Origin: Romanomermis culicivorax
Taxonomy: Eukaryota; Nematoda; Enoplea; Mermithida; Mermithidae
Assembly: GCA_963922205.1 (NCBI GenBank)
Contig: CAWUHX010000319.1
Span: 1-64,000 of the forward strand
Direction of reading: 5' to 3'
Length of the DNA stretch: 64,000 nt
The position numbers were made by a program, and so were the translations under genes. This document shows, piece by piece, positions 2,223-62,420 of this stretch; the first letter of the stretch is position 1, and every line of letters starts with the position of its first letter. The notes beneath the pieces were generated by a model that saw only the letters and a list, made by a program, of their open reading frames with translations, made no database searches and was not told the origin of the DNA.

Positions 2223-2224
2223 GG

Positions 2225-33764: not shown

Positions 33765-33859
33765 GGGTTGTCACCATACAAGCACAGCATTAAAATTCTG
33801 CTGGGTGTCAGCCATGACAGGGAATGGAATAGTGTTATACTTCATCCAATTGTTTTTTA

Positions 33860-36361: not shown

Positions 36362-39300
36362 GAAATGCTCAACACGTTCATATTCATGGTCTCAAATGGA
36401 AGCAGCTCATCGCCAGTATTGTCCTGCAGCATACAGCACAGTGACAGAAAGTAGTACGACTACAACGAAGACGTCATCAACGACAACAACAACAACACCA
36501 ACAACAGCAACAACAACACAAAAAGTGACGAAAACTAGTGAACCACAGACAACAAAAGCAATAATGACGACTGCAACACAAACAACCGGCGTAATATCTA
36601 CAAAATTCACGACCAGGACCGAAAAATCAACAACTTATACGGGAAGTGGAATGGGAAGTACACAAGCATTATTAAAACTCAGAGATATGCCTATTGGAAG
36701 GAGAGACAATTCAACGAAGGTCATAGGACTAGTAACAACGCTCAGATCAATGCAGAATAATAAACCAATGGGAAAACAGATAGTCACAAACATTGCAACG
36801 GCTACAGGAAGTCAGCAGATCATTGGCCGCTCAACCAGTATAAACGTAGGAAGTATATCATCAAGCGAAAAAAGGTCGACCATGTTTTCCGGTCCAGTGA
36901 TGACTACAACTGCATCGAACGGCAAACCATCTTCGTCACTACAGTCGACTAATCAGGTGACATCTAGATCTGTTAGTAGGCTTGAAGAACATTCCACGGC
37001 AAGCAACTCGACTAGCTTGAAGGGAACATCAGTCACTGCATTTTCAACAACTAAATTACCGAGCAATTCGATAGGCAGCTTTCATTATTCAAGTAGACAG
37101 CATACAAAGTTTCCGACGACACGAATAACAGAAAGACTCTTAACAGCAAAATTTGAGAATGCCACCACTGAACCTATAAAAAGAATCAATGTAACCGATA
37201 CGCCAAATACGCCGGCAGTCAGCCAAAACAACATGAGCAGTCAGTCTACTGTGGCTTTTACTCCAACTGTGACTTTTGTTAATGCTGGAACATCTGGCCC
37301 AATGACAAGTTGGCTCCAACAGTCAAGTCGCCAACTACTAATAGCCCTTGCAAATTCAGAACAAGAAAAGTCGACAACAGTCTCACATCAACCTGGCAGT
37401 GAGCTTGGTAAAGTAACCTCGACAAATTATGCCACAGATGCTTCAGCGGGTACAGGAAAACAAGGAGGTACACAGTCGATATTGGTCCCTGTTAAAACTA
37501 GGGAAATTGAAATAGAGAATACATCACAACAGTCAAGTGGTAAAATTATCACGGTCTCATTCGCTAGTTTGCCATCCTCCACTGTAATTGGATTAAATCA
37601 ATCTATATTTGAACGAACAACTGGAGCGGCAACACAGAGTGCAGTCAGCCTCACGGGCCAATCAGTGTTTACAAGTGGTCAACATACCACTGTATTTGTC
37701 ACGAAACCTAAACAGCAAAATGTGACTGACAGAAGACAAGGATCAGAGAGTAGAATTACCACCCCAGCTACTGTTTCTGCAATTAAAACGCAGATTACTG
37801 ATAAGACAATTAGTTTTGAAGCAACCATTCCGGTCATTCAAACGACGGCTTATCAAACATTAACAAGTAATGTTAAACTGATTGGCAGAAAGCTTGCACT
37901 TTCTCCTCGTATTACTGATAAATCAAAAACGATGACAAGTAGTTTTTTACAGTCGGCTGATCAGATATTGGCAAGCTCACCCACAAGAATCGAAGAGAAA
38001 AGTACAATAAGTAGCTTGAAACAGTTACATATCAAGTCAGGTGTAGAGTCGACTTCAACAAAACAATGGACGCATTCGGAAATGACAGCTAATCCGTGGA
38101 TTAGTAAGCAGGTTATATATTCGTCTATAAGTACCCCAAGGAAACGAATAACGACTAACTTGCTCACATTGATTAGTGAATCAAATATGCCTTTTAGTCA
38201 GCGGACATTCACAACTATAACAGAACCTACAGGAAATATCACTGTAAAATCTAATGAAACTACCAGCAGCACAGAATTGAAAAGCCCTACTGTTAGCCTT
38301 GCCTCAAGAGAGTCAAAACCTGTACAGACAGTTACCCGAACTTTAAGTACCTCCATTCCGAATGAAGAGATTAAAAATGACACAAATCGGACGTCCCTAA
38401 AGACCCCAGCCATCACTAAAAAACAAGTACTTTCAAGCAGCTCTCCAATATCGAAAGAACAAATAACAATTAATAATATTTCGAGCGAAGGGCATAAAAC
38501 CAACCGGTATAAAATAACAGTTGAATATGTTACAATAGACGCTCCTATGCATGCATCAGAGCCTATAACAGACGGCCTGAAAAACTCCAGCACCATGATA
38601 CAGCCGATTTCTGTGACAGCAGGAGCGATGGGCAAGACAATCACTGTCAACAGTCAACCGCATTTGAGTACCAACACAGTCAGAGGACGGGCTAGTTCCG
38701 ACACGACCATTCTTGAAACAGATCAACGAAGTAATCAAAGTTCTGAAAAAACGATTAATTATTCCACAACTGAAAGAAAACGCACAAGTAGCTTAAACGA
38801 GATTCAACGCTCAAGTTCCTCAGTCTTTTACACAACTCAAACATCGAATACAGCATCAAGCAGCTCACAATGGACAGTGGGCGAAAGATTTTCTACAAGA
38901 GCTCTGTCGCAAAATATTACTGATGGTATTCTGCCTGCAATTTACAAACCGTTAAGTAATCAACCAGTGACTATTACAGCCAGCAAAGCAAGTAGTTTCG
39001 ACATGCTCAGCAAGAAATTCAAGCACTCACAAAGTGCTAGTGGTATCACAGAAATGCAGACAATGAATTCGACAATATCTGATAAACGACCAGTTACTGT
39101 TTCGTCCATTAAAACAGACGAGAAGAGCACACCTCATGAATCTCAACAAAGGATTAGTGGACATGAAGAATCCTCAATCGCAAATCCAACAATAAGCAAT
39201 TTTGTTTTTTCAGTTGGTGGAATGACTGAATTAGTTGCAACTCATTACTTGTCGTCTGCTACTGCAAGCACTCAACAGATATCTACTAGCCAATTGACTT

Positions 39301-42300
39301 ATTTACCCATTACCGAACTAACAGAAAAAAGCAGTACGAGTAAAAACAGAAAAACGTCCATCGGCAGAAACACGTCAAACGTGACGACAATAAACGCACA
39401 TCACCGGAGTATCGAACCATTTATTGGTTTTACTTCTATTACCGGGGAGATGAGTGCAATAATCAGAGCAAATAGTTCTCCCATGACATCAACTAATAAA
39501 CAGAAAGTAAAAACTGCGAAGACTGAAATCGGGCAAATAACGACACCAGCCATGAGAGGAGGAGCACATACTGCAGCTCTATATAATACACATAGTCCTT
39601 CAATCTATGCATCTATTACTGCAACTAGTGATTCGAAGGAGGTGTCCACAACTGCTGGTGCAAAAGTGCAGGACATTACCGCCAGTAGCCAACTAAAGTG
39701 GAGGAGTGGAGCTGGGAAACTGTCAGCTTATACACATGAATCAAATGCATCAAAGAGTCGAAAAGTTCAGTCCAGTGTTAAACATATAACATACCTTGAT
39801 ACACGAGCTGAAAGAAAGCATACTGGTAGCGCAAGACTGATCCAAAGTGGAAGTTCCTCTACCAAGTTCGTCAGTGGAATTCACAGCACCTTGACAAGTT
39901 TAGTACGTCAGACAAATAGCCAAAATGCTGCAACATTTCTAATGGGTACTTCAGCGTTCATCAAACGACAAGCTCCAACGCTTGTAACCACCATTCTAAC
40001 TGGTGTACCAATACAGTTGATTATTTCACAGGGAACATCTGTTAGTGTTACAAATAATCTCAGTCTGACCAGTATGAATTTACAGAATTCCAAAACTACG
40101 AGCATGAAATCGACAATTCCGACAAGCAGTTTCCCGGTTCTAGATAATCGATCAGGGACCATTTTACCCGCCAATGGGAAATTCACGCCGAGTAATAAAC
40201 GAAGGTTATACAGTGAACCAGGCATGATTATGGCTTCAGACGAAGGCCGTTCACATTTGGCGGGGTCCTCTCAACAGTGGACTAAGCGTATAAAGTTTTC
40301 TACTAAAAACTATAGTAAACTAATTATAAATTATTCCCCTAGTAGTAAAATGAATACATTGGCAAGTAGTCTGCTTGCTGCACCCTTGGAAGCTTCGTCT
40401 ACTGCAGGAATTACAGCGAATGCCATGGCGAATAATAATGTGTCAATCGACTCTAAACTTCGTGAAACTACCACCAACGGTAATGTAGCAAACAATCAAA
40501 CAAGAGATACCCAACAGTCTGGGAGGCAAACAGAGAATCGTTACACTTCAACTGCTAAAAATAATGTGCAAATAACAATTAGCAAACCAGTTATTACAAA
40601 AGTCACTGAGCCATTGAACAGTGGCACTGCCACATCTTTGACCAAAAGTCTTGAATCAAGTATTTCCACCGTTCAAATGACTTCTTATTCCTCGACTTCA
40701 GCTAAGAGCATAAGCACTAGTTTCTCCGGACATTTCGAAAATGAAACTAATGCAGCTTCTTATAGGCTTAAAATATCGACGTTACCAACACGTAGTGTGA
40801 AAAAATTAAATTCTCAAGACAAAACTCCAACTGCCTCTAGTAGCAGACAGTGGAAAAATAGCAATGTGAAGACATATTCTGATCAAGCTACTTTTGCATC
40901 AAATTTAAGACAGTCTGATAGTGGTCAGATGCATTTCACAACTACAATTATACAAGGTCGGCACACCAGGAACCTTTTTGAATCATTGATTGCAAAAAAT
41001 ATCGCCACCTTTTCTGAAACACTTACAACAGATAAGCCAGGAAGAAGTTTCTCTGCTTATAATGGCACTCAATATAAACCGGTCTATACTACAAAAATTC
41101 AAAACATTAGTACGACGAACGCGTTCCAACAATTGAGTAGGGAAACTCCTCCTATGCCTGACACCGGCGGTTCTCAAAACTGGGCCAGCCAGCAAACAAA
41201 GCCTCGAGCTACAAGAATAACAGAAAGTAGACCAATCGTCGGATTAACTACAACTCCTTCAAATCATGCGTTCGCATTTGATCCTTTCACGGCCGCATCA
41301 GTAGTCACTACAAAGGATACTTCGTTGAGTATCCTGAATCAGGCTAAGCCATTACACATCCAGACTTTATTCAGCAGAAAAAATATCGAAGCTACAACTG
41401 CTAATAATCCTTCAGCCCAATCGATAACTAAAGTTGGAGCAAGTACAGTGCAAACTTTTGTCGGTGGTGCATCAACTTTTCAAACGAGTGAAATGCATAA
41501 TAGCCAAACGTCGACTAGACTTTCAACAATATTAGCTCATGAAAGTCGGATCAGCTTTCCTGTTCAGACTGTGACTACGTTGGCCAGTGAGCAGAAAACT
41601 TCTGTCGCAACGAAAGAAACTGTCAAACAAACCATGAGTGGCAACCAAGAGATGGATGGAAAATCCGTTAGCATATCATCTGTTAGCAGCAGGCCAAGTA
41701 GGAAAATCACAGGTTTGGATGGATTGATTAATGAAGTTTCTATTACCTCTACCAGCACCAAAACATCAAATAATTCGAGAGGTAGAATGAATAATTCACT
41801 TGAAATGCGGTCAACCATTCCTTATACAACAATGAGGGTTTCACAAAATACAAGCGAAAGACAACTACTGTCTGATAGTGATCTTCCTCATATTACAGCT
41901 TCTACTGATACACTTAGTAGCTTGACACCCAAAATGCAAACATTAACCAATAAACCTATGGGTATCATCACTAAAACAATCACTGAAAAAAATACTAGCT
42001 GGTCAGAGCAATTAATATTGGAATCTACAGCGTCATCTTCTTCAGTCGGAACGCCCAATGGCCAGAACAGGATTGCATCTGTTGTGAGATTCGCAAATGG
42101 AGATAGAACAACCATGCATGAGAAGTCAATGGCCACATCAACTAAAGCTACTGTCTCCACTCTTGTAGATAACAAGTCCACACTCAAAACAGGTTCAGAC
42201 CATCTGACTAACAAGGTAATAGGCCCTAATGCAGGCAGTACAAAAATGACCACCGTGGGAAGTTTTCTACAGAGTATAAGCGTCCTAATGAACAGGTCTA

Positions 42301-45300
42301 CAATTGCTGGAGGATACTATGGGCAAACAAATACTGTGCTTAATAATGAGACATTTCCGACATCAGCTGCTATTAGTGAAACAACCACACAGACAGAAGG
42401 TCCTCGACAAGGAAGTTATCATGCTGCGACTATTTCTGTAGCACAACAGCCATCCACAACCAGCCTGCAGAAACCTATAGACCAGCTGCTAACTTCGTCT
42501 CCTACAAACAGTTCTACCAGTCCTTTGTCGAGGAACAAGCAGCCGCCCAGTAGTCATTTCGTGAGTGCTTCTACTATAAAAATTCTGAAGCTGACTACTT
42601 CAAGCAATGAGCAGCAGTTCAGCAGTCGATATATGGCCTCTTCTACTTCGCATGAATCAGGCATCGTTTTAACAGACGCAAGGAAAGAAGGACAAAGGAC
42701 GAGCATAAAACAACTAGTTGGTTTATTATACACTGCAACGCCTTCCACTCGTCATGAAATAAATACTCCAACGATCAGTGTGAAACCACCATACAGCTTA
42801 CACTCTACTCTTACTGCTTCGATGACATCTGCCCCACAACCAATATCGAATAAGCTTTCACCCAATCTCCGAAAGTCTGAAAATCAATCCACGGCTGCAT
42901 ATTTTACTGCAGCTTCACTAAAATACACTACTGGTAGACAGGAACAAGCGAGTACAGATATCTTCAACACTTCTACAAAAAAACAAGCAATCAGTTTTCT
43001 ACAATCAATTGGGCAATATATGAACGTTTCTACGACGGTAAAAGAAGGGGATGATGGACGAAGCCTTACATCACAACAATTGAGTAGCAGAATCGACTCA
43101 ATTTCAGTAACTGATGCTTTTCTGGATACGACAGTAACTAAACAAAATATTACAATTTCTACAAAAGCATTATCAACAAAAGTAGTACAAAATAGCAATG
43201 CAAAAGATCAATCTGGTGACGAAAATACTACGGCTATCATGAATCATGAACCAATCATTTCGTCTGCCAGTCAGAAACAGTCAAGCACTGAACATTCAAC
43301 GTTTATCGATTCCCAATACATAAATATCACAAATGTGACACTTTCATTCAAAGTTGGCACATCAAGTGGCACAAACAACATGCACAATCATTTAAGTACC
43401 CAACGTATGACGAACTCATCTTCAAAAATTTTATTGAATGGCACAAGAGGTTCCACACAGTCTTACAATGGAACATACACAGTTTTTCCTCAAGACAAAA
43501 AAGTCACAGCAACTGCAACGAATAGCCAATATCAAACAAAGGATTTTAGTAAAACAGCGACGGAATTGAAGTCGAGCAGCAAAATAGGCACAGCTGCTCC
43601 TGCTCATGAAAATGTCACCCTAGCTGCAGAAAGTTCCAGTATCGGCAAAATGGATTCTAGTTCACAAACAATGAAGAGAAGCACACGGAGCATTTTTGAT
43701 GAACAGCAGGTTAACAATAAAGTAAAAACTTTCAGTGTAAATGGATCAGTTGCACCAACAACAGCCCGAATACAGCTTAGTCATCATATGCCATCACCGT
43801 CTACTACAAAAATAGGATCCATTAGACCTCCAAGCAATACTCAAAAATCGGAAAGTAGTTCTGTTCCTACTTCTATTCAAAACAGAAAAGCTAATACTAC
43901 AATACAGCGGAGCAGTGAAAATGCTGTCACGTCAACTGAAATTCCACAGAAAACAACAACTGTTAGTTTGCATATTATGAAAAAGGAAACTAACACAGCT
44001 GCAACATCATACGGAGTACCAAATCTGTCAAGTAATTATCGTACACGCATGAATGTTTTCACTGCCAGTGTTGGAGGAATTAAAAATGATGTTCAAAACT
44101 TGAGCAGCAAACCTGTTAAAATGACAACGTTGGAAATTTTGACCCAAAGCAGTCAACAGTCGAGGAGTCAGCAAGTAGCGATGCTTTCTACAGGTGTTAC
44201 AGCCACAGATAAAGTAATTAGCTCAAAAAGAGCAACATATCGTCCTGTAATACTTTCATCTTTGGAAAATGCATTTACTACATCAACAAATCTATACAAA
44301 CAATCTGATACCAAACATTCTGGTTATGATGCTACATCGTCAATGCTGGGCAATATTTTCAGGAGTCGATATCAGTCGACGACTGCAATCCTAACTGCTG
44401 AAGTCAATCATACTGCAGCTATCCTGGAAACTAAATCAACCCAAAAATATGCAACAGATATACCAACAGATGCCCAAGGTAGAAGGATCAATAGCACACA
44501 AATAGAATCAGCATCTTCTACGGAATCAAACAGTAAACAAAAAGTAACGTCTAGTTCTGGAGCCATATGGAAAAAATCAACGAGCATCACTGAACCTCAG
44601 GAAAATGTCACAGTTCAAGAGCCATCGAAGACGGAGAGAGCACCTACTTCTTCCTTAGTATTGTTTAGTAGTAGCACAATGAAAAATCGCGACCTGACAA
44701 AGGGGAAGATTGTGAGCAGTCGTACTATCAGTGACGGAAAAAACGAGCCAGCTATCAGCTTGCAACCATCTTCTAACAAGATTTCCACAGTTTCTACTGT
44801 GGGCCACAGTAGGAACGCGGCTACAAGCACGACGCAAGCCGTGATTAATTCTACATCAATATATTCAAAGAACAATACTTCGACAAACTATACGCAGCAT
44901 CTGACTAGACTCCAGGCTACAACTCTTTCAGCGAAAACTATCAGCTTACAACAATTGATTGGACAACGTGTTGCAGATTTTATAGTCATTGATACATCGA
45001 AAACTGTCAAACCCGGCACAGAAATATTGGGCACAACATATCTATTTTCCGGCGTCACAAAAATCATAATGAAGAGCCGAGCCAGTACTCAAAGAAACTT
45101 TGAAAGCAATGTGGTAACCAGCAATAGATCAAGAAGTGCGACAACAGGAGTTTTGGGAATTGAAAATAGAACAGTTTCAACAGCTGCACTAGAAAACACA
45201 TTAAACAGTTTAATGAACGTTGATCCATTAATTTCTCATACTACTGAAGCATCAAGTATTCGACAACAGTCAAAAAATCAAGAAACAAGTGTAGTTGCTG

Positions 45301-46238
45301 GAAAAACTACAAATGTTGGCAGAAAGAGCAGAGAAGCGCAGACTATGATCAAAACCGTCCCATCGTCAGACAGTACTGTTGTTGCAGATACATCAGTTTC
45401 ACTGCATAATATCTCGAGAAATTCGAGCACGACCAAAATGGAAAACACATCAAGCATTTCAACACGAATGACCAAAAGTATCTTTGAACCTTCAGTCAGT
45501 GACAGTGCATCAGTTGTACTAGAAAAAAGCACCAAACGTTTCAGTAATCAGTTTACACCATTATCCACAACCAGAATTGAAAATAACTCGAATAGAATGA
45601 TTAATTCAATTGGTGGAGCTGGCGCTACAGAAATCGGTATGAGAACTTCGACGGGTAGCAATCTGTGGTCGAAAAGCGAACATACATCAAATCCAGCGAC
45701 AATTTGGTCAATTAAAAGTACGGCTATAGATGCACAAGAATCAAATTCAATACACATTACGACTACATCAAATAAGGACCAATCGAATATTACGACGACG
45801 CAGGAGGTCAGCAAGCTACAGTCATGCAGTCAGCAATTTTGGACTACTGCCACTCCAACAACAGCAATAAATGGTAGTGCTAGTACACCGTTGCAGGAAT
45901 CGAGTGGTGGCATTACTGAAACATCTACTATTGGAGAAACCCGGATAGGTATGATGGACGACAAGTTACAGAACATCACAATTGTGCTTTCAAGCTACGC
46001 ATCAGATATTTCAACGACCGACTTTCAAGTTTGGAGCACCTCAGCTGCGACAGTTCCGATTACAGTGAGTGCAAACGAAAATTCGACAGGCATGAATTCA
46101 CATCGACAGCATATGAATGGAAACGACACCTTTCTACTATTGACAAGCAGACCTGCCACGTACTTCAACGATCATTACTTTCAACTCGATGATGATGAAG
46201 TGAAGAATATGAACAAAAGCAATGAAACTCTTAGGTAA
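36362..46238 (+). CDS. Giant mucin-like member of the secreted family, single exon of about 9.9 kb
   Basis: After an intron acceptor (CTAAAG, ending 36361) one exon stays open for about 3,290 codons. It begins with the N-module K-C-S-T-R-S-Y-S-W-S-Q-M-E-A-A-H-R followed by Q-Y-C, in the same 1-nt phase as the paralogues. The first internal Met is at 36396, so the true start lies in an unseen upstream exon. The rest is dominated by Thr and Ser with Asn and Gln, many N-x-S/T sites and Thr runs near the start (36455-36530). I see only one further Cys, near 45825. A short hydrophobic motif of the form S-F-L-Q-S-(I/A)-x-Q recurs (for example at 37939, 42258 and 42992), a trace of ancient repeats. 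The exon ends in an acidic tail and a TAA at 46236, where CTTAG|GTAATC could instead be a splice donor. No C-module was found after it. Probably a heavily glycosylated surface or secreted mucin. Confidence 0.75.
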
Positions 46239-46811: not shown

Positions 46812-46994
46812 TTATTGATACTTCATGCACAGAGGGGAAGGCAGTTTCAGACAGCAAGTTCCACCATTTGTGCTGCCCTGAACATACAAATTGGAGTTTC
46901 CGTACATCGAATTCATGGTTTTGGAAGAGGAGGGAGCATTGTAAGTACTGAATAGAACATCGAAGGACAACCGAATCAACAAGAATTTACTCAT
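46812..46994 (-). other. Exon-like segment, strand uncertain
   Basis: On the minus strand an acceptor-like CTATTCAG (about 46953) opens a Ser/Asn/Gly-rich frame with a final C-C...C cluster, ending at a TAA near 46812. On the plus strand the same DNA is bounded by GGCAGTTTCAG and GTAAGTACTG, which would make it an internal exon. Either way it is more GC-rich than its surroundings. No family was recognised. Confidence 0.25.
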
Positions 46995-49917: not shown

Positions 49918-50947
49918 ATGAAATTTCTCTTATTTATTCTAATGAGTGTTCATTTCGGCTACGTAGAAGGTTTTCGTTTACGTTATACTTTATGGGTAAA
50001 TAAGCAATTATTGTGGTCTGTTAGTCTGAATGCGAATCAAGTTAATTTTTTAGTCAATTTTTTTCCTAATGTATTATTTAAATTTGGAATGTGAAACATT
50101 ATTTTTGATTGATATTAGAGTTATTCGCATTTTGGATATGCTAAACACATACCTGAGATAACAAATCTCGTGCATCCGCACTTTCTTGGATATTTTTTTC
50201 AAATATCAGGATAAAATGTAATGCTCATTTCTATATTTACGCCAGTGACCATTTTCGAAAATTCTAGCATTCTTCAAGACATGGAGTCAAAATGATTTCA
50301 CAGAAAATTACTTAATATCTAAGTTAAATTCAAGTTTAATAATGGTTAGGGCAAAGTCGCAGTGTAGGTTCTATTTGAAATACTAGGACCTTTTACTTAT
50401 AGTTGGGATTCATCGGCAATATTTTTTCCAACGGCTCTAAAACTTAATTTAATGATATATTCATCTATAAGTTTGCATCTGTGAAATCTAATCCAGCTAC
50501 ACATGCTATTTAAAAATAAATAGATTAGTATATTAGAACATCAACAGTCTGTAAAATTTGTTGTGAATTCTACATTAAAAACACATTTTTTTGCACCTGG
50601 CAGATGAGCAATTTAAAGACGCAATGTTCCCAATCCTCAACCGATCGGATGATTGCCGGACTCTATTTCTAGATAAAGGTATTTGCACAACATTAGCCAG
50701 CCCAAAATTTATTTTATATATTATTTAAACAGGAATTCCACTCAGCGGCAGTCCATTTTGCAAACAGATCTTTGTACCTAGAGCATTCTGTACGTAGAAG
50801 TGCATGGTTGATTGTGGAATGCTACTTGCAACCAGGAAACAATGCACAGGACCAATATGGTTCGGTTTTTGTTATAAACCCGATGAAATTGTGGGATCAT
50901 GCGTCTGCGTCAGTGACTCAACGGTCAAAAAGAAGGACTTGTTTTGA
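49918..50947 (+). pseudogene. Secreted-family member, short type, with a nonsense codon at the conserved Trp
   Basis: ATG at 49918 begins a clear signal peptide (M-K-F-L-L-F-I-L-M-S-V-H-F-G-Y-V-E-G); its exact donor is uncertain. Exon 2 (50604-50678, 75 nt) follows CACCTGGCAG and encodes E-Q-F-K-D-A-M-F-P-I-L-N-R-S-D-D-C-R-T-L-F-L-D-K, with donor GTATTT. Exon 3 (50733-50947) follows TTTAAACAG and encodes I-P-L-S-G-S-P-F-C...R-A-F-C-T, then TAG at 50795-50797. It continues K-C-M-V-D-C-G-M...P-D-E-I-V-G-S-C-V-C-V to TGA at 50945. Paralogues have Trp (TGG) where this copy has TAG. Everything else, including all Cys, is conserved. It is either a very recent pseudogene, a truncated allele, or a transcript that needs recoding. 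Confidence 0.66.
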
Positions 50948-50989
50948 GTAGCCAAAGCAGCCACAATTGGAACTCTTGCACAGGTTTAA

Positions 50990-51110
50990 CTATACTCTTT
51001 CTTGTGGTTCTATTAAAGGAAAGTGCAAGAATCCAGGTTCAATCCCAGGACCGGGGTCGAAGTTTTTTGTTATCCCACCACGAAGAAGCGCTCCTCCTGA
51101 CATGCGACTC
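50990..51110 (+). repeat. tRNA-related SINE-like fragment
   Basis: GGTTCAATCC at 51036 matches a pol III B box, followed by GGACC and TTTTTTGTTATCC. The A-box side is weak. The next SINE-like unit lies about 170 bp downstream. Confidence 0.4.
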
Positions 51111-51208
51111 TTGACGATCCACCAATTTCGACGACGGAAAGATGTTGTGAGTGACCAAAGCAGTCGCTGAAACGAACTGTTCCACAAAGTTAGAACCTCT
51201 ATTCCGTG

Positions 51209-51310
51209 ATCTTGGCTTAGTTGGTTAGAGCGTGCAAAACCACAGCGTTCCGAGTCCAATTCCTGGACTGCACCCAATTTTTCTGTTAACCACAAGAAAA
51301 CGTGCTTCCT
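51209..51310 (+). repeat. tRNA-related SINE-like repeat, family 2
   Basis: TGGCTTAGTTGGTTAGAGCG at about 51212 is a good tRNA A-box region. GTTCCGAGTCC at about 51246 is a one-base-disturbed B box, followed by a CTGCACCCAATTTTTCTG tail. No full cloverleaf can be drawn. Confidence 0.5.
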
Positions 51311-52265
51311 GACAGCCTGAATCCATACTTTTCGATGACGGCTAACAAGTTCTAGCTAACATAGCTAAATAGGTCACAAGAAAAAAGGTCTAACTCCGTC
51401 CGCGAGTAAACGGTTGGTATCGTTCTTTGACCACTTGCAAGGCCTCTCCTCCATGGAGCTTGACCGATGGACAAGGGTCGCCAATAGGCGTCGGTAGCAC
51501 ATTCTCTTTGAATGATTGCCCCAAAAAAATTAAGATGACTTTAACCCGATAATTTGAGGTTAGCATCTAGAAGCTAGCTTGTGCAGCAACGGCTTCTGTT
51601 TTGTTAGTTGTTCGAACAGTCTCAACAATTTACCACCGTGCCGGATTGTCATCAAACGAACAAAATATTTGTGACTAGGGGCTATATAGCAGAATCTTGT
51701 TGTTATTTACTACGAACATACTGCATTAAACTGAGTCGATCAAATAACAGGAAAGATTCTAATTCGCACGAAATATTGTGGTTGATGCGATTCTTTGATC
51801 CTTCATTCCAACATGAGCTATCAAATCCAAAGCACATTTGCTATTTTTGAGAACTAAGGTTAAACTAAATCACAGAGAATCAATTAGACAATTTTCCTTC
51901 ATGATGCAGATTCCTTTATGGTCATCTTTTTCTGCTATTTTCAGACCACTGCAACTGATTACCTATGTTCAGCGAGACCGCGTTGGTCGTTTCTAACAAA
52001 TAAGAGTATTGATGACTTTTTCTTCTAGTTTCAACAGATTTAAAAATTAATTGACGATACATACAATTTGATTCTGTAATTGACCACTAATTCTAACGAC
52101 ATATACTGCGTTATCGATCCTGAGTAATTTGCATAAATATTTGCAATAGTTTGGCTATTTCAGACTAAATAAATAGCAGAAACGTTTTCGAATACGGCGT
52201 TACTTGTTGTTTAGCAGGGGCGAAATTTTTGTTCGATTTGCACATAATTTTGCTGTTTTTGTAAG
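51311..52265. other. Intergenic DNA
   Basis: About 950 bp. A frame at 51608-51850 is not supported by motifs or splice sites. This would be the place for a 5' exon of the next family copy, but no hydrophobic start was convincing. Confidence 0.35.
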
Positions 52266-52849
52266 AAATGTGAAACAATAAGATATTCGTGGGCCCCCAA
52301 ATTGAAGCTGCACACCGTTATTTTTGCTCACCTGCCAACTCAACAAAACCTGCACATTGGACAGGGTACGAAGAACTAGCACCAAACGCAATGACACATA
52401 CATCGAAGGTGGCAGAGAATAAATTGAAAACCACTGCAACTATAGTTCCACTAAAAAAAAAAGTAACGAATTCTGTTGCTCTGACAACAACAACAAAAGC
52501 TTCAACAAAAAGAACTACTAGTGGAATAATAATGCCGCCTTGTCCTTAAAACGGAATGCACTCGATTCTTGACAGCCCCAATGATTGTCGCGAGCCGTTC
52601 CTTGATATCGGTATTTGGAGGTAAAATTAGCTTATTATTGACTTTACTTTACATTACTTTTTCAGGGACTCCATTCGTTGGTAATTGCACTCCTATTTTT
52701 GCAGTAAAGACGTTTTTTACATTAATATGCATGTCACAGTGTGGAATGCACTTCATGAAGGGCATTAGATGCTCAAAGGTTCCCCAAGTTGGCTTCAAAG
52801 ATACAGTTTTGTGTACCTGCATAAACCAAGAAGAAATGCAAGTTTAAGC
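52266..52849 (+). pseudogene. Secreted-family member, long type, disabled
   Basis: Exon A (to 52608) keeps the N-module start K-C-E-T-I-R-Y-S-W. A two-base disturbance in TGGGCCCCCAAATTG puts Q-I-E-A-A-H-R-Y-F-C in another frame. The usual acceptor AG is also shifted (GTAAGAAATGT). A Thr/Lys-rich stretch follows, then C-P-(TAA)-N-G-M-H-S-I-L-D. The TAA at 52547-52549 stands where the copy at 55408 has CAA (Gln). The linker reads N-D-C-R-E-P-F-L-D-I. After a 56-nt intron (52609-52664) exon B encodes G-T-P-F-V-G-N-C-T-P-I-F...L-I-C-M-S-Q-C...I-R-C...L-C-T-C-I, with a stop at 52845. The C-module is intact, but the N-terminal half is broken. Confidence 0.68.
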
Positions 52850-53425
52850 AAATGTTGTCGAAAAACATGAGGGAGGCCTATGCTCTGGAGTCCATGTTTC
52901 ACGAGTTTTCTTAGATGTTCAAATTAAGGAATCCATAAAAAATTGTTCTTCACCGAAAAATCGGGGGTTGAGTTTTTATTCTTTCCTACTTTACATTGGT
53001 TTGTTTCTAATCATGCCATATTTCAGTTATTTTAAAAGAATCCAGAGTCTTGTCCAAAAAAATAATGATTACTCAAATTCACACTTCATAATAGAGTAGA
53101 TGAAACATAGTTTTCGAAATGAAAAAGATTTGCTTTGAAAAAATATTCATGCTACACCTGATAGATACGTCAAGTGCAAAAGCTACTGTATCCTCTTATT
53201 CTGCTTGTTCGAGCATCAGTTAAATGAAAAAGTATAGAGAAAAATACTTGGAATTTTGGTAGAACCACTACGCATTCGGGCTTAATAAAGTTTCTTTTAG
53301 TTTGTGAAGAAACTTACAAAATTAGCTTGTGATGTAAACTTTTCATAATCAAGTATTGGAGAAAAATTGTGCCATATTAAATTCCTCAAGGGATAGATGT
53401 TTTATAAAGAATGTCTGTTCTGTAG
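52850..53425. other. Spacer between family copies, nothing recognised
   Basis: About 575 bp of AT-rich DNA. No signal-peptide exon was found for the next copy. Confidence 0.4.
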
Positions 53426-53968
53426 AGGATGTCCAACACAGAAGTACACGTGGCTCCAAATTGAAGATGCACACCGAAACTTCTTCTCTTCTGCTTATTC
53501 AACAACAGTTGGACCAAGAGTAGGATTGGAGAGAATTGCATCCACTACAAGGATACCAAAGCCGATTGTGAAGAAGAAAGCAACTGTAACTACTGGAATT
53601 AACCCAAAAACGAAACATACTACACATCGCACGAAAACAACAATAGTGAGACGAAAGCTTTTCCTGAAAACTCGAAGGATCCCATTCTCGACAAACCTAG
53701 TGGTTGTCAAAAGCCATTCCTCGACATCGGTATTAATGCTTGATTGCATTTGCCATGGATTTATAAACAACTTTTTTCAGGAGTTCTATTCCTTGGTAAT
53801 TGTACGCTTTTGGTTGCCGCAAGAACATTTTTCACCTGGAAGTGTATGACGGACTATAAGACGTATTCTATAGAGAGCATCGTATGCTCTAAACCTCCAC
53901 GTGCTGGCTTCCATGACGCAGTATCACATGTCTGTGTCAATCAACCCACGACGAAAAAGTCATGTTAA
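53426..53968 (+). pseudogene. Secreted-family member, long type, frameshifted and missing two cysteines
   Basis: Exon A (53426-53729) follows TCTGTAG and begins G-C-P-T-Q-K-Y-T-W-L-Q-I-E-D-A-H-R, then a Thr/Lys-rich stretch. Near 53660 it lacks one base: TTTTCCTGAAAAC stands against CTTTGCCCTCAAAAT in the copy at 55408. The linker I-L-D-K-P-S-G-C-Q-K-P-F-L-D-I is therefore in a second frame. Intron 53730-53779 is about 50 nt. Exon B (53780-53968) encodes V-L-F-L-G-N-C...F-F-T-W-K-C-M-T-D-Y...I-V-C...S-H-V-C-V. The D-C Cys has become Tyr and the first Cys of S-C-V-C has become His. The paired loss suggests that these two bond in intact members. Confidence 0.68.
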
Positions 53969-54050
53969 TATAACTAATATGAAAATCACGAAATCCCGAT
54001 TTATAAGCCATATTCTTACAAATATTATCAACTGTTCAAGTTTATTTCAC

Positions 54051-54170
54051 CTAGAGTCTGTTTTTCTTGAAATGCTTCTAAATAATGAAAGTGGAAAGCA
54101 AATAGTATTTCAGATTTTCACGCTTTGCTGATAAACAATATATCGTATTGGACTGGAAATTTGTGAGCAT
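54051..54170 (+). mobile_element. MITE-1 copy 8, right half replaced by foreign sequence
   Basis: Starts CTAGAGTCTGTTTTTCTTGA and follows MITE-1 through GGACTGGAAATTTGTGAGCA, then stops abruptly at about 54170. A G-rich segment begins there. Confidence 0.72.
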
Positions 54171-54335
54171 AATGACATGAAAGATGGACGTGAGGTGGTG
54201 CTGGTGGTGGAGAGGCGGATGGGGGACCAGGTTGGACCACGGCTGGGTACGGGGGGTCGGTAAGCAGGGACGGCGGGGGACGAAATACGAAATGATAATA
54301 ATAGATACCACCCAGAATGCCTGGTGGTAGACGCA
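54171..54335 (+). other. G-rich insertion with quadruplex potential
   Basis: About 165 bp unlike the surrounding AT-rich DNA. Runs of three to six G occur at 54221-54280 (GGGGG, GGG, GGGGGG, GGG, GGGGG), which could form a G-quadruplex, though with long loops. It interrupts a MITE-1. Its source is unknown and no open frame was recognised. Confidence 0.45.
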
Positions 54336-55407
54336 GTCGATTCTCTATATTTTATTCTAACTAAAGAACACCCAAAAAACTAACAACATAAATGCGTTTA
54401 TGGCCGCAACAACAATTAGCACAGGTTTATGCAAAAATATATAAAAATGACGTTTTTATATACAAGAGCTTCTATTTACGAATGTGTTTATTATTGTTTC
54501 TTGTTTACTGTAATTAAATTGGAAAATAAGTGATAATATCGGTCTAGCTCAGTGTGGTATACTACAGACATAATAAATCTGAAGGTATACAAACATTGCT
54601 AAAATTCAAGCCCATATATCATTCAGAATATCAAAATGATCATGGAGATCCCAAAAACAATATTACGATTCTGAGAAATATCTTTCGCTTTTGCATGTCT
54701 CACTTATTTTGTTGTTGAGATCAGATACAAGCGGACTTACTAAACGATGGCATTAAACATGATTAATGTCAGATTTTCCACCGAGAACTTCATCTTGTCA
54801 GATGTTTCAACACGAATTTTACGCAGTATAATGCCCAAAAGATACCTGAATTATATTTTACAACAAGCCATCCTGCATAGCTTATTCAATACATAATCGT
54901 ACAACTTTTCATTTGGGAAACTGTTACCAACTTAGTCTCAACTTATTAAAGATTACGTTTCATTCATAGATGAAAAAATTTTCGTCTGCACTCCTTATGA
55001 TGCTTAAAATTCTTTAGGAGATATCGATTCTTAGGGCGGAAATTCTCTTAAATTTTCCTAGGGCACTAGGTTATGTTGTAGACTCCACGCTCAAATATGA
55101 AAAAAATCCAAACCCTTCCACCCTTTCATGATCTTGGCGCGAGGGTTGCCCAAGCACTATTAGAGAGCATAGATGGGCCTCAAATGTTAATAAGTTTTTC
55201 ATGGCACGCATTGGCATGTAAGAAAATGAAAATTGTTAAGGAAAATTCGTGTGTGGTTAAGTCCTTAGAAATACTGAAACATTGGTTGAGCTTTCTAAGT
55301 GGTGGAAAGAGTTCGATATAAAGACGTCAAGGAAAAAGAATTCGAACATCAATTTTCATAACCACTTCACTTTTAAAATTTGTATGCATAATTTCATTGA
55401 CGTTTAG
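54336..55407. other. Spacer between family copies, nothing recognised
   Basis: About 1.1 kb. A 74-codon frame at 55097-55321 has no recognisable features. Confidence 0.4.
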
Positions 55408-55886
55408 AAAATGCTCAACCAAGAAGTATTCCTGGCAGCAAATTGAAGCCGCGCATCATACTGCCCATCCATTTACCCAACAACAGTTGCATATGAGACC
55501 GACTTGCCAACAAGAATAACTAATGCGTCGATTCTGCTATCAAATTTGCCAAAATCAACAACATCAGCAGGGAGACTGACGTCAGTAACTACAGTGATAA
55601 TAAAGAATGCGACCACAAGTACATCAATGACAAAAGTGCTTTGCCCTCAAAATATGGCTCACTCAATTCTTGACAATGCGAAAGGTTGTCGCGATCCCTT
55701 CAATGATATAGGTAATCAAGATCAAGTACTTCAAAAATTTCAATCTGTATTTCTTTTTCCGCAGGAATTCCATTCGATGGTAATTGCACGCCCATTTTCA
55801 CAGTTAAGGCATTTTTTACGTGGAAATGTGAAGTGGATTGCAACATGCATTTCGTAAAGAGCATCAAATGCTCTATACCGCTCTAA
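55408..55886 (+). pseudogene. Secreted-family member, long type, frameshifted with an early stop
   Basis: Exon A (55408-55711) follows GACGTTTAG and begins K-C-S-T-K-K-Y-S-W-Q-Q-I-E-A-A-H-H. A one-base change near 55470 moves the Thr/Ser-rich part into another frame, so the original frame hits TAA near 55515. It ends C-P-Q-N-M-A-H-S-I-L-D-N-A-K-G-C-R-D-P-F-N-D-I with donor GTAATC. Intron 55712-55764 is 53 nt. Exon B (55765-55886) encodes I-P-F-D-G-N-C-T-P-I-F...F-F-T-W-K-C-E-V-D-C...I-K-C, then TAA at 55884-55886. The copy at 52266 has CAA (Gln, then V-G) at this position. Two independent defects make it a pseudogene. Confidence 0.66.
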
Positions 55887-57257
55887 GTCGGCCCAAGAGC
55901 CAAAATATCATTTGCACCTGTTTTGGGCGGTCAACGGCTGGTGCGACGTAAGTTGCTAGACATTAGACATAGGGACGGTGCGCAAACAAATTCTTCATGG
56001 AAACGGAGCAGAATCTTCAACAGCATGTAATATAAATTCTGTTATGCAACTCGTTCGAAAACTGATCTAAAACTGTCAATGGGTACAGCAAAGTTTTGCT
56101 TGAAAATTCATGAATTTCAATGATTCTTGAAGTTTTATGTACTTAATAGCACACAGTTTTCTGGAAAACACGATCGTCCGTCTATTTTTTTTATTGTTTG
56201 CATAAGTAATCATTTGTTCATTGTGTTTCATCATACACAGATATGCACCGACCAAATTGAGGGACGGGATGGATGAGCAAAAAAACAAAAAAAAAGACTC
56301 TGCAAGCATGTTTCTCATACAGAATATGGATAAATTCATTAGAAAACTGTCTTCGAAATAGTTCAGGGGGTTGTTGACGATTTTTTTCGGGCCGGGGAGG
56401 GATGTCCAGGGTCTCAGGGTGGAGGATTGACCTCCCCTGACCCCCCTATGTGCATGTGTGATCATACATCAACAGTAAGTAAAATCTGAAGATTATCAGT
56501 ATTCTCACGAATTTACGGATGAAAGATTTTAAATTACGTTGTTGAAATATCTTAGTAACCTGTCAATGAATGTTCCACTTATAACTTTTCTATACCACTA
56601 TACTTTTCTGCTCATTATCTTCAGATTTTCCCTACAGACGGGCCTTGATGCTTGGTACTAAAAAACACGGTCAAATGAATGCCACGTCCTACAAAGGGTT
56701 TTGGGATGATGCACAAGCGGTTTAATATATTCCATTTATTTTAAGATTAAATTCGGAATGTAGAGAAATGCTTTTGCCGATGGAAAAATCTATAGTTTTC
56801 AGGAGTACTTCTGAAGCAGTCTATTCACATAATTTTGTTGAGCGCTTTTCCGAGGCACGATGAAGCTGAGCTGCAGCTCAAACTGTAGCTTAACTTTGTA
56901 TGTTATACTATTGCTTTTAAGATGCAGCTCATCTACAGCTTAACTCATACACACAAAACATAACGATAAAGTCAAGCTGCAGCTCAGCTGAAGCTCAAGT
57001 CTCTTTGATGAAACCGGCTCTAGGTCTGCCGCGTAAGCACTATTCTGTTTATGCAATTAGCATATTTAGGAGATTAAGATTTTTAAGCACGAAGTAGACA
57101 GGACCAATGAAATTCAAAGGCTGTGATCTGGTTTTTGCGAATTTAAAAATTTTCATGCAATAGGCTCAGAAATGTAATTCATTTATTAAAATCACTCATC
57201 AAAGCTTCCATAAAATGCCGAATAGGATTTCAATCAGAATTTAGTTTTCAATACAGC
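55887..57257. other. Intergenic DNA with a short hairpin
   Basis: 56872-57000 holds an imperfect hairpin whose arms carry AGCTGAGCTGCAGCTCAA and AGCTGCAGCTCAGCTGAAGC. A purine- and G-rich stretch on the minus strand lies at about 56385-56460. No gene was recognised. Confidence 0.4.
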
Positions 57258-57719
57258 TGTCACAGATAGTGACCTTAGTGATGAATTTTAAATGAAGTGT
57301 AAAATAATTTCTCATTTATTATTTCATAACATGTTTCGTTTTTATTATATTCATTTCTCCATTTTCATTTTATCGTGCATTGCGTCATAACTGGATTCTT
57401 CATAACTGAACATCAGTTAATTTCCATCAACATAGAATAGTCACATTGACAACCTAAACATAAAGGTGTCACGTGGAAACCTAATGGAAAAACAACCAGA
57501 AATAGAAACACTTAGGGAATAGAACCGGATTCTCCTACGTGAGGACTCTAGCAACATCAATGTCCTAAATGCTATCTATAACCGAAAATAGACAACCTAA
57601 AATAGAACCAAAATATAGAAAGGACTGAAGATAAAAAACCCTCTTCAGTTGGAAGAAGAACAGTCGATAACATTAGTCGATTCTTCGCCGCTCGCTCAAC
57701 CTTTCGCGAGCTCCCAACC
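57258..57719 (+). repeat. 5' LTR of element B, truncated at its 3' end
   Basis: Matches 60129-60590 with three substitutions (C/T, A/G and A/G). A TATA-like ATAAAAA at 57631 sits about 90 bp before the break. The remaining 281 bp of the LTR, present in the 3' copy, are missing. Confidence 0.9.
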
Positions 57720-60162
57720 TATTGCCCCTGAGGATAGAGAAAAAACCGCCTTTACAACACCTATTGGCCTGTTTGAATTTCAGTACTTACCATTTGGTCT
57801 CTGTAATGCACCAGCCACTTTCCAGCGGCTGATGGATGTGCTTTTATCTGGTCTACAGTGGCAAACATGCCTCGTATACCTTGATGATATCCTAATATTT
57901 GCAAAAACCTATCCACAAATGTTGGATCGTCTGGATGAGATCCTCAACCATTTAAACAAAGGAGGAATGAAACTTAGGCTCAACAAATGCCGCTTCCTCT
58001 ATCCAGAAGTAGAATATCTGGGTCATCGGATCTCTGAACATGGTGTATTGCCCGACTCAAAGAAGTTGGAGGCAGTAAAACAAATGCCAGTTCCAACCAA
58101 AACCAAAGAGATCAAAGCCTTTCTTGGCCTGATCTCCTATTATCGGAAATTTATTCCAAACTGTGCACAACATTCTTATCCTTTGAACAAGCTATTGAAA
58201 AAGGATGTACGATTTGCCTGGGGTCAAGAACAACAAACCGCATTTGACACCCTAATAACCGCATTAACCAACCCTCCAATTCTGGCTCACCCTGATTTTC
58301 ACAAACCTTTTATTTTACAAACTGACGCCTCAACCACAGGAATAGGTGCAGTTTTGAGTCAAATTGGGGCGGACAACAAAGAACATCCAATCGCTTATGC
58401 AAGCCGTCTGCTAAAACCCGCAGAAAAGAATTATCCCATAACTGAGCTGGAAACCTTAGCAGTGGTCGAGTTTGTGAAACATTTTCGCCCATACCTCTAT
58501 CAACAAGAGGTAGTGGTCGAAACGGACCACACTGCAGTTAAAGCAGTTCTTGAGAAAGAAAACCCTTCGGCTCGCATAGCAAGATGGGGATTAGCCTTAG
58601 CAGGCTTTAAGCTGGACATCCGTCCAAAGAAAGGTACTGCAAACCAAAACGCAGACGCCTTATCCCGTCTGCCTAACCCTAACCAAGAACAAACATTCGA
58701 CATTGAAAAAGATGCTTTCCACAGGCCATTGGAAGCTCTAGATGACCAAACCGTGTCATCAGTTCAAGTTCAGGTAGATATTAAACGATTACAACAGGCT
58801 GACCACGATCTTAACCAAATCCTTACTAACCTTAACCCAAACCAAATGGAACTTGAGGAAAACACGTTTAACCTAAAAGATGGAATTCTGCATAAATTTG
58901 AATCGGGAATCAACAAAGTGGTCATCCCAGCATCTTTAACCAGAGAGATCATCAAAACCCATCATGATGACCCTCTAGCTGGACATTTTAGCAGTCGCAA
59001 AACCATTCGACTTATTTCTCAAAAGTATTTTTGGCCAACACTTAACAAAGATGTCCGGGAATACTGTAAATCATGTCGCCTATGCCAGATTAATAAACCA
59101 AGTCGGCATAAACCTAAGGCCACATTAAAACCCATAATTGTGTCTGGCCCTTTCGAAAGATTGGGAGTAGACTGCATGGGTCCCTTAACCATAACCGAAA
59201 AGGGTAACCGTTTTATTGTGGTCTTTATTGACCATTTTACCAAATATGTTGAGGCATTTGCAACCCCTGATATAACTGCCTCAACAATCCCAAAACTTTT
59301 CGTAGCTAACATTGTTTGTAGACATGGGGCACCCCATGTTTTACAGTCAGACCGAGGAACTGATTTCACCTCCAACCTTATGGTAGAAATCCCAAAGTTA
59401 TTTGCTACACAAAAAGTGCACACAACTGCATACCATCCTATGGCCAATGGCGAAGTAGAAAGGACAAACCAAACCTTGGCTACTCGCATCGGCATGTATA
59501 TTGGAGAGAACCATGCTGATTGGGACGAACACCTCCCATATGCCGTTTTTGCGACCAACATCCACGCAAATGAATCAACCAACCATACACCTTTCGAACT
59601 TGTGTATGGTCGAACTCCAAAATTACCAGTGGACACAACCTCAACCTACAACCCTCCACTGCACTTCATAGATATGGAAACCTACAATCTAGAAGTAAAA
59701 CGTCATTTCACACAGGCCTTAACCATAATCCAACAACAGATTCAAACTGCACAGGAGAAGTATGCACAAACATACAATAAACGAACCCACAACATCCACT
59801 ACAAAATTGGTGACCTAGTCCTGAAGGAATCCCAACAACAACCACGCCGAGGGCTAACACATAAATTTATGCCTCTATTTTTGGGTCCTTATGTAGTAAC
59901 TAAGGTCAACTACCCTAACATAACCATACGTGATGTCAACAAACCAAACATCACAGAAACCATTCATGTGAACCGTAGTAAACCATACATACCTCGCAAC
60001 CCTGAGGCACATAAACCCATAACCACAGAAAAGCAACGACAACGTTCATCACAAATGGCACCACCAACGTCCGAAAACCAAGAACAGGAGGATCGAACGA
60101 GGACGTCCGATTTTTTCAAGGGGGACCATGTCACAGATAGTGACCTTAGTGATGAATTTTAA
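57720..60162 (+). CDS. Pol fragment of element B: partial RT, RNase H and integrase
   Basis: One uninterrupted frame enters from the LTR (open from 57649) without a plausible ATG. It begins inside RT at E-K-T-A-F-T-T-P-I-G. Motifs in order are L-P-F-G-L-C-N-A-P, Y-L-D-D (about 57880), and RNase H Q-T-D-A-S, E-L-E-T-L, E-T-D-H-T and N-A-D-A-L-S with all four acidic residues present. Integrase follows with H-H...C-x-x-C, catalytic Asp in V-D-C-M-G-P, Asp in Q-S-D-R-G-T-D and Glu in G-E-V-E-R, plus a GPY/F-type C-terminal domain (L-G-P-Y, about 59880). The stop at 60160-60162 lies 34 nt inside the 3' LTR, so the last pol codons are LTR sequence. RT lacks its first catalytic Asp, so the copy is not autonomous. 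It is the best intact reference for the decayed pol of element A. Confidence 0.9.
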
Positions 60163-60871
60163 ATGAAGTGTAAAATAATTTCTCATTTATTATTTCATAA
60201 CATGTTTCGTTTTTATTATATTCATTTCTCCATTTTCATTTTATCGTGCATTGCGTCATAACTGGATTTTTCATAACTGAACATCAGTTAATTTCCATCA
60301 ACATAGAATAGTCACGTTGACAACCTAAACATAAAGGTGTCACGTGGAAACCTAATGGAAAAACAACCAGAAATAGAAACACTTAGGGAATAGAACCGGA
60401 TTCTCCTACGTGAGGACTCTAGCAACATCGATGTCCTAAATGCTATCTATAACCGAAAATAGACAACCTAAAATAGAACCAAAATATAGAAAGGACTGAA
60501 GATAAAAAACCCTCTTCAGTTGGAAGAAGAACAGTCGATAACATTAGTCGATTCTTCGCCGCTCGCTCAACCTTTCGCGAGCTCCCAACCAAATTTGCCC
60601 AACTTACTGTAACCTAAGTAAGTAACCTATCTTAACCATACTCCAACCGAGTATATCAACCAACCTCAACCTGAACCTTCAACCTTTTAGAGAATAACCT
60701 ATCTCTTCAACCCAACCAAAACCGAACCTTCAACCTCACAACCTAAGAGTGACGCAAGTGCACGGGTAACCTCCAAAATTAATCGTGTAATTAATTGTAA
60801 TATAAGAATAATTAATTCTTGCGTTCTTCTTACAGTTTGTCCTATCCCTACACAGCCCCCAGGTAGTGACA
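60129..60871 (+). repeat. 3' LTR of element B, complete
   Basis: Preceded by the polypurine tract CAAGGGGGACCA (about 60117-60128), starts TGTCACAG and ends GGTAGTGACA, giving a 5-bp inverted terminal pair. The U5-side half is rich in AACC repeats. Confidence 0.85.
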
Positions 60872-60875
60872 CAGC

Positions 60876-61688
60876 GAGTAGAAGCTATACGAACTTCCTG
60901 ACGGCATACGGAACAACACCACCAGCATGAAGGGATACAATGTTTTTGCTCAAAAAGGAAGTTCTTTCGGACCAATCTCCCCGAAAATTTACTATAGGAC
61001 ATTCTGACATCAAGATTGATAATCTTATGTGCATGCCGACAAGTCTCATGTCGTAAGTATTCCACTGCTTACATGCCGCAATGACAACAATGTCGGATCA
61101 GAAAATTCACGCGCCTTTTGTAGTCAAAACTCAATTGCATACATTTTCAGATGATAGTCTTATTCAGGCTAAAGATTCAAACTTAAACCGACAAGGCTTT
61201 GTTAATTTTTTTCACAAATAATGTGCAGGTTCTTACAAGAAACCAACTAGATATGTAAACGCGAATTAATCGATGAAATGTATCCGGTTTAGGCTATTAT
61301 TCTGTCGCATATTTGACACACTTTCTGTCATTGATCTGAGTTAATATGCCTAAGGTGGTTTATTTTCCAAACTGCGTCACCATAACTGCATCAATGATCT
61401 GTCAACTACGCTATGCATGGAGTACGTTGTTAGCATGCGTACATTAAAATGATTTGATTTGCATATATTCTCCAACTTCTAGTGTAGTCAAAAAATATAC
61501 AATTTAGACACTTTCCTCAATTTTTATCAATAAGGCTCATTCAATTCGCTTCCGAATCCAAAATGTTGATTACCTTAGAAATCTTTCTTGGTTCTGACTG
61601 TTGTTGTAGTGGTGCATCTGGCTATTCTTTACGCGGCATGTCCCGCACTCACCACCGCCACTACAACCACAATTTCCGAACCATCCAC
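60876..61688. other. Intergenic DNA, nothing recognised
   Basis: About 800 bp of AT-rich sequence. GGCTATTCTTTACGCGGCATG at about 61620 has an inverted near-copy at about 63764, probably part of a dispersed repeat. Confidence 0.4.
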
Positions 61689-61825
61689 GTGGCTCAGTTA
61701 GCGCAGTTGGAAGCACGTCTCCCTTATATGCTGAAGGTCGAGGATTCGAGCTCCTCACCGAGCGTTATTTTTCTGACGCGCCGGCCTCGTGGATTTGGGC
61801 ATACAACACTGTCGGCTAGGTAGCA
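61689..61825 (+). repeat. SINE-like repeat, family 1, copy 2
   Basis: TGGCTCAGTTAGCGCAGTTGG at the start and GGATTCGAGCTCC further on match pol III A and B boxes. The T-arm folds (GAGGA/TCCTC around TTCGAGC), but the anticodon stem does not pair well, so it is not a working tRNA. The tail GAGCGTTATTTTTCTGAC is shared with the copy at 11082. Confidence 0.65.
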
Positions 61826-61984
61826 TTGTTTACCGTGTCATGTAAAACGCAGTATGTGCACTTTCGCCGTGCGAACGTTTTCTACCAAGTGACATTACCA
61901 CATGGATTAAATTTGTGATAATACATTTTGACTCGCGATGTCCATTCAATCAGTTAGCCAGAAACCATATCGTCACAATTGTAG

Positions 61985-62420
61985 GGAATGTTTTACGCAA
62001 ATTTACCCATAGCCTCAAATTGAAGCAGCGCAGCACAAACATTGTTCATCCGCTAATTTAACGACAGCTGAGTGTCAGGGAGGGCTTGCGGAAAAGACAT
62101 CAATTTCAACAACGCTAACGCCCAATAGAGCAGTGACAACTATAAGTACAAGAACAGCACCAACGTATTCAACGACAATCAGATCAATAACAAAATTAAC
62201 GGAAAGATCAACACTAAAAAAGGTAACACGGACAAGCAGTAAGTTAGAAGCATTGCCAGATATTGAGACTTCACTAACCACGGATTATGCAGATGCGAAC
62301 GCAACAAGCAGTACTGCAGTGACGCTTATGGTGATAACGATACCAGATGAAAACGATACTTTTGGCAGCACAAAGCCAAGAATGGAAAGACTTCCACCAC
62401 TTCATGTGGTTGATGGATAA
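61985..62420 (+). pseudogene. Secreted-family member, long type, nonsense at the N-module Trp
   Basis: After acceptor CAATTGTAG the exon reads E-C-F-T-Q-I-Y-P, then TAG at 62010-62012, then P-Q-I-E-A-A-Q-H-K-H-C and a Thr/Ser/Lys-rich stretch that stays open to a TAA at 62418. The TAG stands exactly where all other copies have Trp (TGG). No linker with G-C-R-x-P-F and no C-module exon could be found downstream, so this copy is either truncated or continues beyond recognition. Apart from the single TAG the frame is clean over about 145 codons. Confidence 0.6.

Follow-up and report, generated by a model that had tools for sequence, protein, structure and literature searches.

Insect intestinal mucins and peritrophins combine cysteine (Cys)-rich domains with mucin tracts in the gut matrix. 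In the nematode Toxocara canis, the TES-120 mucins are secreted proteins built from serine/threonine (Ser/Thr)-rich tracts and small Cys-rich domains, and the Tc-MUC proteins listed in that account (MUC-1 to MUC-5 group) measure 176-316 residues and carry a six-Cys ShKT domain (PMC3611597). For the vertebrate mucins MUC5AC and MUC5B, the passages drawn on here describe CYS domains lying between Ser/Thr-rich repeats, with changes in the copy number of both (PMC10983947). Here we analyse a stretch of Romanomermis culicivorax DNA, bases 1-64000 of contig CAWUHX010000319.1 (C319; 366,100 bp), referred to as the window. As a preliminary description of the window had proposed, it encodes members of an apparently secreted modular family in which a Cys-rich module is combined with Ser/Thr-rich spacers, with no named domain in the libraries searched. 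The arrangement of the modules differs from that description.

The well-supported unit, as read from predicted gene structures, is a domain encoded by three exons in the order P-C-N (PCN): an exon with a GCRxPF motif, a Cys-rich exon and an exon with a CxTxxYxW motif, the Ser/Thr-rich tract coming after N. Single-domain genes comprise a signal-peptide exon, a P exon of 72-75 bp, a C exon of 190-205 bp and the 5' part of an N exon; C exons in a downstream array span 175-205 bp. Intron phases are 1, 1, 2 in the seven modelled signal-peptide genes, where the model of gene G ends at its C exon, and the signal-peptide exons terminate in C-C-P-Y-F-K or a variant. Gene A (33075-46238, plus strand; four exons, 3407 residues) encodes a signal peptide, one domain and a 3271-residue tail:

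33075..33147, plus strand: exon 1, signal peptide, ends ..GGAKYFK, phase-1 donor
33436..33510, plus strand: exon 2, P exon, GCRAPF, phase 1 at both ends
33562..33760, plus strand: exon 3, C exon, apparent stop within the phase-2 donor
36362..46238, plus strand: exon 4, N part, then the 3271-residue tail and terminal stop

The tail contains 32.3% Ser+Thr, compared with 11% in the part before it. Across the whole last exon, an uninterrupted frame of ~3290 codons, there are 74 N-glycosylation sequons and 3 Cys. Position 36362 had been described as an N-module with mucin only; the exon is the fourth of gene A.

The preliminary description had joined N, mucin, P and C into one unit and ended the protein after C, because an in-frame stop follows the C exon. 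However, in 20 of the 34 C exons on 264 kb of the contig GTRAG contains the first in-frame stop past C, and the exon thus bounded ends in phase 2. The same context surrounds 703 of the 29,398 stop triplets in this 264 kb (2.4%), a comparison in which the 34 C exons are related copies and not independent draws. Other phase-2 GT donors serve four further C exons (22399, 186964, 192138 and 211147). Six array C exons, also related to one another, have AAG/GC at the same donor distance: four GCAAGT and, as drifted forms, one GCAGGT and one GCACGT (contig 81952, 88024, 114178, 148730, 155922 and 167535; L014, L015, L018, L021, L022 and L023). The remaining four of the 34, without a good donor, belong to gene B. 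Of the 32 N matches, 30 have a phase-2 AG acceptor, and the other two are broken copies from gene B. An AG is not uncommon in the 44 bases searched, whichever phase is required, and we therefore place more weight on donors than on acceptors.

The order C then N recurs at unlinked loci. At L040 an intron of ~60 bp separates C from N (E 0.0018), at L042 N follows farther off (E 1.2e-7), and at L036 and its near copy L035 C precedes a variant N, recognised by eye, across ~75 bp. N matches were weak in L037, L038 and L041, and the profile scan of the off-contig stretches gave none in L033, L034 and L039. It is the donor context together with this order that leads us to assign the domain as P-C-N. 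Since C would splice into N, the short members at 22199, 33075 and 49918, previously taken for complete proteins, are better read as 5' parts of longer genes.

Profiles for C, N and P were built from window copies and used at an independent E-value (i-E) cut-off of <= 0.01. The motifs themselves are real, as the scan recovered all three in the window:

C-modules: 13913+, 20667-, 22399-, 33561+, 50732+, 52665+, 53780+, 55764+
N-modules: 19587-, 21632-, 36360+, 52280+, 53424+, 55406+, 61983+
P motifs (GCRxPF): 23325-, 33438+, 50606+, 52550+, 53666+, 55648+

Only three of the window copies were independent finds, namely C 13913 (36.4 bits), C 55764 (61.4 bits) and N 52280 (25.6 bits); the next-best unrelated scores were 6.8 bits for C and 4.5 bits for N. 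In total, the 264 kb of contig scanned gave 34 C, 32 N and 17 P matches, spanning 13.9-212.4 kb. Those beyond the window, numbering 26 C, 25 N and 11 P, did not enter the profiles and are independent of them.

The copies described at 20464 and 22199 turned out to lie on the minus strand, the latter in gene I (24272-21297, minus strand, 233 residues). Of the two worn C-modules proposed, the one at 13872 was recovered, and 25099 gave no C match at the cut-off. Gene I and the remaining single copies are as follows:

24185..24272, minus strand: gene I exon 1, signal peptide, ends ..GCAKYFK
23253..23327, minus strand: gene I exon 2, P exon
22203..22407, minus strand: gene I exon 3, C exon, apparent stop in a GTAATG donor, weak acceptor
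21297..21630, minus strand: gene I exon 4, N part and 90-residue tail, 33.3% Ser+Thr, stop
20468..20669, minus strand: further C exon downstream of gene I, phase-2 donor, no P motif before it in the profile scan of the window
19519..19588, minus strand: further N exon, 23 codons then stop
13872..14088, plus strand: worn single C-module, 36.4 bits, without the CxC end

Five of the nine main copies in the preliminary description (49918, 52266, 53426, 55408 and 61985) belong to gene B (49918-62420). The copies at 52-62 kb do not serve as representatives of the family: judged by its reading frames, gene B is decayed, with frameshifts, in-frame stops and lost Cys and donors.

49918..49974, plus strand: signal-peptide-like start, identified by eye, end approximate
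50606..50917, plus strand: P motif 50606-50680 and C exon from 50733 with in-frame TAG and no good donor
52266..52832, plus strand: N-linker-P with frameshift and in-frame TAA, and C exon 52666-52832 without a phase-2 donor
53426..53944, plus strand: N-linker-P with frameshift, and C exon from 53781 that has lost two conserved Cys
55408..55901, plus strand: N-linker-P with frameshift, and C exon from 55765 with in-frame TAA
61985..62420, plus strand: last exon, N-module with in-frame TAG and 115-residue tail, 32.2% Ser+Thr

The frameshifts fall within the N exon at 52266 and 55408 and within the linker exon at 53426, the TAA ahead of P is at 52547, and all four C exons are without a good phase-2 donor. 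Any single one of these lesions could be an assembly error; the frameshift at 52266 adjoins a run of C. By eye, the C-terminus of the last exon is like that of the array's last exon (contig 178376-181232). Between the last two gene B exons sits a short long terminal repeat (LTR) element (57258-60428) with two 300-bp repeats 99% alike and a Ty3-like pol open reading frame (ORF), named from its translation by eye. A transfer RNA-like gene (61692-61764, 37.2 bits) precedes the last exon, and a similar match was seen in L015.

Beyond the window, an array at contig 66-181 kb holds 21 C and 21 N modules. In 16 of its 21 N exons a linker of 25-34 residues with 35-55% Ser+Thr leads to P and a phase-1 GT, and the terminal exon has 952 codons with 45% Ser+Thr. 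The cysteines are conserved: 15 of the 16 assembled array domains have exactly 10, the other 11. Duplicate pairs, which stem from segmental duplication within the array, gave a synonymous distance (dS) of 0.171, a nonsynonymous distance (dN) of 0.051 and dN/dS of 0.30 for C exons (n=8), and dS 0.203, dN 0.080 and dN/dS 0.40 for N-linker-P exons (n=7); 41 of 391 sites differ in their short introns (distance 0.113). These comparisons point to purifying selection on the duplicated exons, although the exact ratios are rough.

Five more genes were recognised on the contig:

183210-189226: gene D, 189 residues, tail 53 residues with 17.0% Ser+Thr
191327-194221: gene E, 274 residues, tail 133 residues with 22.6% Ser+Thr
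196018-199177: gene F, 353 residues, tail 212 residues with 28.3% Ser+Thr
from 204069: gene G, modelled to its C exon, likely N exon near 208.2 kb by eye
210347-212441: gene H, 142 residues, ends 4 residues past the last Cys of N

In the modelled genes Ser+Thr before the tails amounts to 11-17%. What follows the domain differs: 4 residues in gene H, which as modelled shows the domain alone, without a tail; 53-212 residues in D, I, E and F; 3271 in A; or repetition of the domain in the array. Farther along the contig, at 225-261 kb (L029-L032), receptor-like seven-transmembrane ORFs stand in a row; three of the six scanned match 7tm_1 and the nematode family 7TM_GPCR_Srx at E <= 0.1, and the family cut-off is exceeded by one of them for Srx and by one for 7tm_1.

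The genome searched for relatives comprised 359 Mb in 595 contigs. With the gene H domain as query, relatives appeared at seven places at E <= 0.001 (C269, C130, C109, C19 and C344), while C109, C269 and C2 gave weaker ones, which makes six other contigs in all. The 10 off-contig stretches examined contain 11 C modules, and the Ser+Thr content of seven off-contig N-exon reading frames, two of them cut by the stretch end, is 4-19%. A tree was built from 37 C exons over 65 columns, leaving out 88024, 114178 and the gene B exons; its branches are long. Eighteen of the 19 array C exons in it form a single clade (99/98), the exception being the first, 66399, which clusters with A, I and D. The A/I/D/array group, set apart by a fork with 94/95 support (not starred), excludes the C exons of E, F, G, H and window 20470, which are interspersed with C exons from other contigs. 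A single origin of the Ser/Thr tails was considered and dropped, as the tailed genes E (22.6%) and F (28.3%) lie outside the A/I/D/array group.

Searches of Pfam, the PDB and a set of 5.8 billion proteins placed the modules in no known domain family. Against Pfam at E <= 10, the spliced domains of D, E, H and I gave chance-level matches only (DUF7025 0.06, MAX_effector 0.24), the first 116 residues and last exon of gene A matched no family, and the other scanned parts yielded only PlyB_C (0.069) on a gene B frame. No PDB sequence match was better than E 0.38. In the 5.8-billion-protein set a single-sequence query produced no candidate, and an alignment query gave 215 candidates, none at E <= 1; this search needs shared 5-residue words and similar length, and distant or longer relatives may escape it. 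Nematodes are present in the set, because a control query with major sperm protein returned 280 proteins, with many nematodes among the 120 listed. Among the literature matches listed, no publication dealt with such a domain. The C exon alone, with six window rows as input (two from gene B), was predicted as a strand, two helices and four strands (predicted local distance difference test 78.9, predicted template modelling score 0.62). Searches of PDB folds with this model gave no convincing match, a result that excludes nothing. A defensin-like reading, prompted by the CxxxC...CxC spacing, was rejected, as neither the predicted helices and four strands nor the empty Pfam and PDB searches lent it support.

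How might such proteins work? Secretion, O-glycosylation and a matrix role are what we infer for them. The domain would fold into a compact, disulphide-closed knot that could bind a ligand or its own kind and thereby cross-link chains; O-glycosylated tracts would extend and hydrate the chain, and, as in Cys-domain mucins, the product would make up a gel or coat, either secreted or on a surface. The anatomy by itself, that is exon borders and domain order, we hold to be highly probable from the genomic evidence. More tentatively, we propose that the proteins build a matrix or coat in which the domain serves as a knot for binding or cross-linking. For anatomy and function taken jointly, a new Cys-rich domain on Ser/Thr-rich tails in a gene cluster with a secreted, coat- or gel-forming mucin-like role, we see the balance as even.

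Several observations weigh against this interpretation. Exon borders were set by hand on consensus sites in fitting phase, from genome sequence alone, which leaves the splice junctions predicted; since sites were sought in fitting phases, their agreement is a consistency check and not an independent result. For four of the 21 array N exons the scan gave no P motif (67608 with an ORF of 621 codons; 70315, 131903 and 135519 with short ORFs), the contig scan found no signal-peptide exon for the array, and the array may amount to several genes, separated by a segmental duplication. Within their first 165 residues, counts that include any signal-peptide and tail Cys, the seven modelled genes have 8, 12, 14, 12, 12 (G, without N), 15 and 11 Cys, that is 11-15 in six and 8 in gene A, which is without the signal-exon Cys and without two C-exon Cys; the number is odd in H and I, and in E once the signal-peptide Cys is subtracted. 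Tails of D (17.0%), E (22.6%) and F (28.3%) vary and lie below classical mucin Ser+Thr content. The short-intron distance of 0.113 is smaller than dS of 0.171 and 0.203, in a small sample that makes dN/dS rough, and the tree does not show one origin of tails.

The strongest competitor, which we nevertheless regard as unlikely, takes the domain for a small secreted protein of recognition or defence, binding microbes or a host and diversified by duplication, whose tails only tether or protect it. Gene H, being the domain alone, fits this, as do the low Ser+Thr values (4-19%) of the seven off-contig N-exon frames and paralogues only 35-40% identical to gene H. However, dN/dS of 0.30-0.40 among array duplicates indicates constraint and not diversification, and no Pfam family scored above its cut-off. 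A host-facing parasite surface-coat or secreted glycoprotein family like the Toxocara TES-120 mucins, a type marked by ShKT domains on either side of the mucin core and by O-linked glycans on a larval surface coat, would share the plan of signal peptide, Ser/Thr-rich tract and small Cys-rich domains, but the Cys domain here is not ShKT by profile and we judge this version improbable. Hardly any credence is left for separate N-mucin-C genes alongside short proteins. Unspliced reading does give stops after C exons, and 18 of 31 N exons examined have an upstream in-frame ATG; yet splice donors contain most of those stops, 13 of the 31 have no such ATG (that of gene A directly follows a stop), no clear signal peptide was seen by eye ahead of N exons, and the C-then-N order is kept at unlinked loci.

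If the P-C-N reading holds, a domain with defined exon borders, lacking from the libraries searched, would supply a profile for correctly spliced nematode proteomes, whereas a profile of the N-mucin-C unit would misdescribe the real protein. With tail-free and tail-bearing relatives in one genome, the growth of mucin-like tails can be studied.

Other features of the window include Ty3-type retroelement ORFs at 1159-7200 (gag-protease, reverse transcriptase-RNaseH and integrase zinc domain), with an env-like gene upstream whose ORF matches Monjiviricetes_fusion glycoprotein (PF24664, 1.5e-14). Two ~600 bp copies, 2.5 kb apart and 79-88% alike piecewise, lie at 14162-17259. A dispersed repeat of ~125-190 bp occurs at 11490-11682 and six other places, with seven copies of its first part.

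The array recalls the gel-forming mucins in alternating Cys domains with Ser/Thr-rich tracts, a likeness of architecture only and not of homology. It differs in exon structure, a large central exon in the mucins as described in that source against three exons per array domain, and the Pfam scan of the last exon and first 116 residues of gene A revealed no VWD, assemblies of which characterise the gel-forming mucins. In the same Pfam scans (E <= 10; D, E, H and I domains, gene A first 116 residues and last exon) there was neither an ShKT nor a CBM14 chitin-binding match. With the TES-120 mucins, as far as they are described in the account cited, the family shares the signal peptide (hydrophobic start exons in seven genes, read from sequence), the Ser/Thr-rich tract (tails of 32.3% in A, 33.3% in I and 28.3% in F) and small Cys-rich domains. 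It differs from them in having 10 Cys in 15 of 16 array copies and three exons instead of a six-Cys ShKT domain, and in size, the 176-316 residues listed there comparing with 3407 for gene A. It could be that an orphan small secreted Cys-rich protein became a giant mucin system, in which single-domain genes gained last exons rich in Ser/Thr, up to 9.9 kb long, and a phase-matched two-exon unit multiplied to ~20 domains, re-creating the vertebrate alternation independently; we offer this as a conjecture somewhat more doubtful than not. A member of neither group by its predicted domain content, the family resembles both TES-120 and the Cys-domain gel mucins in its architecture.

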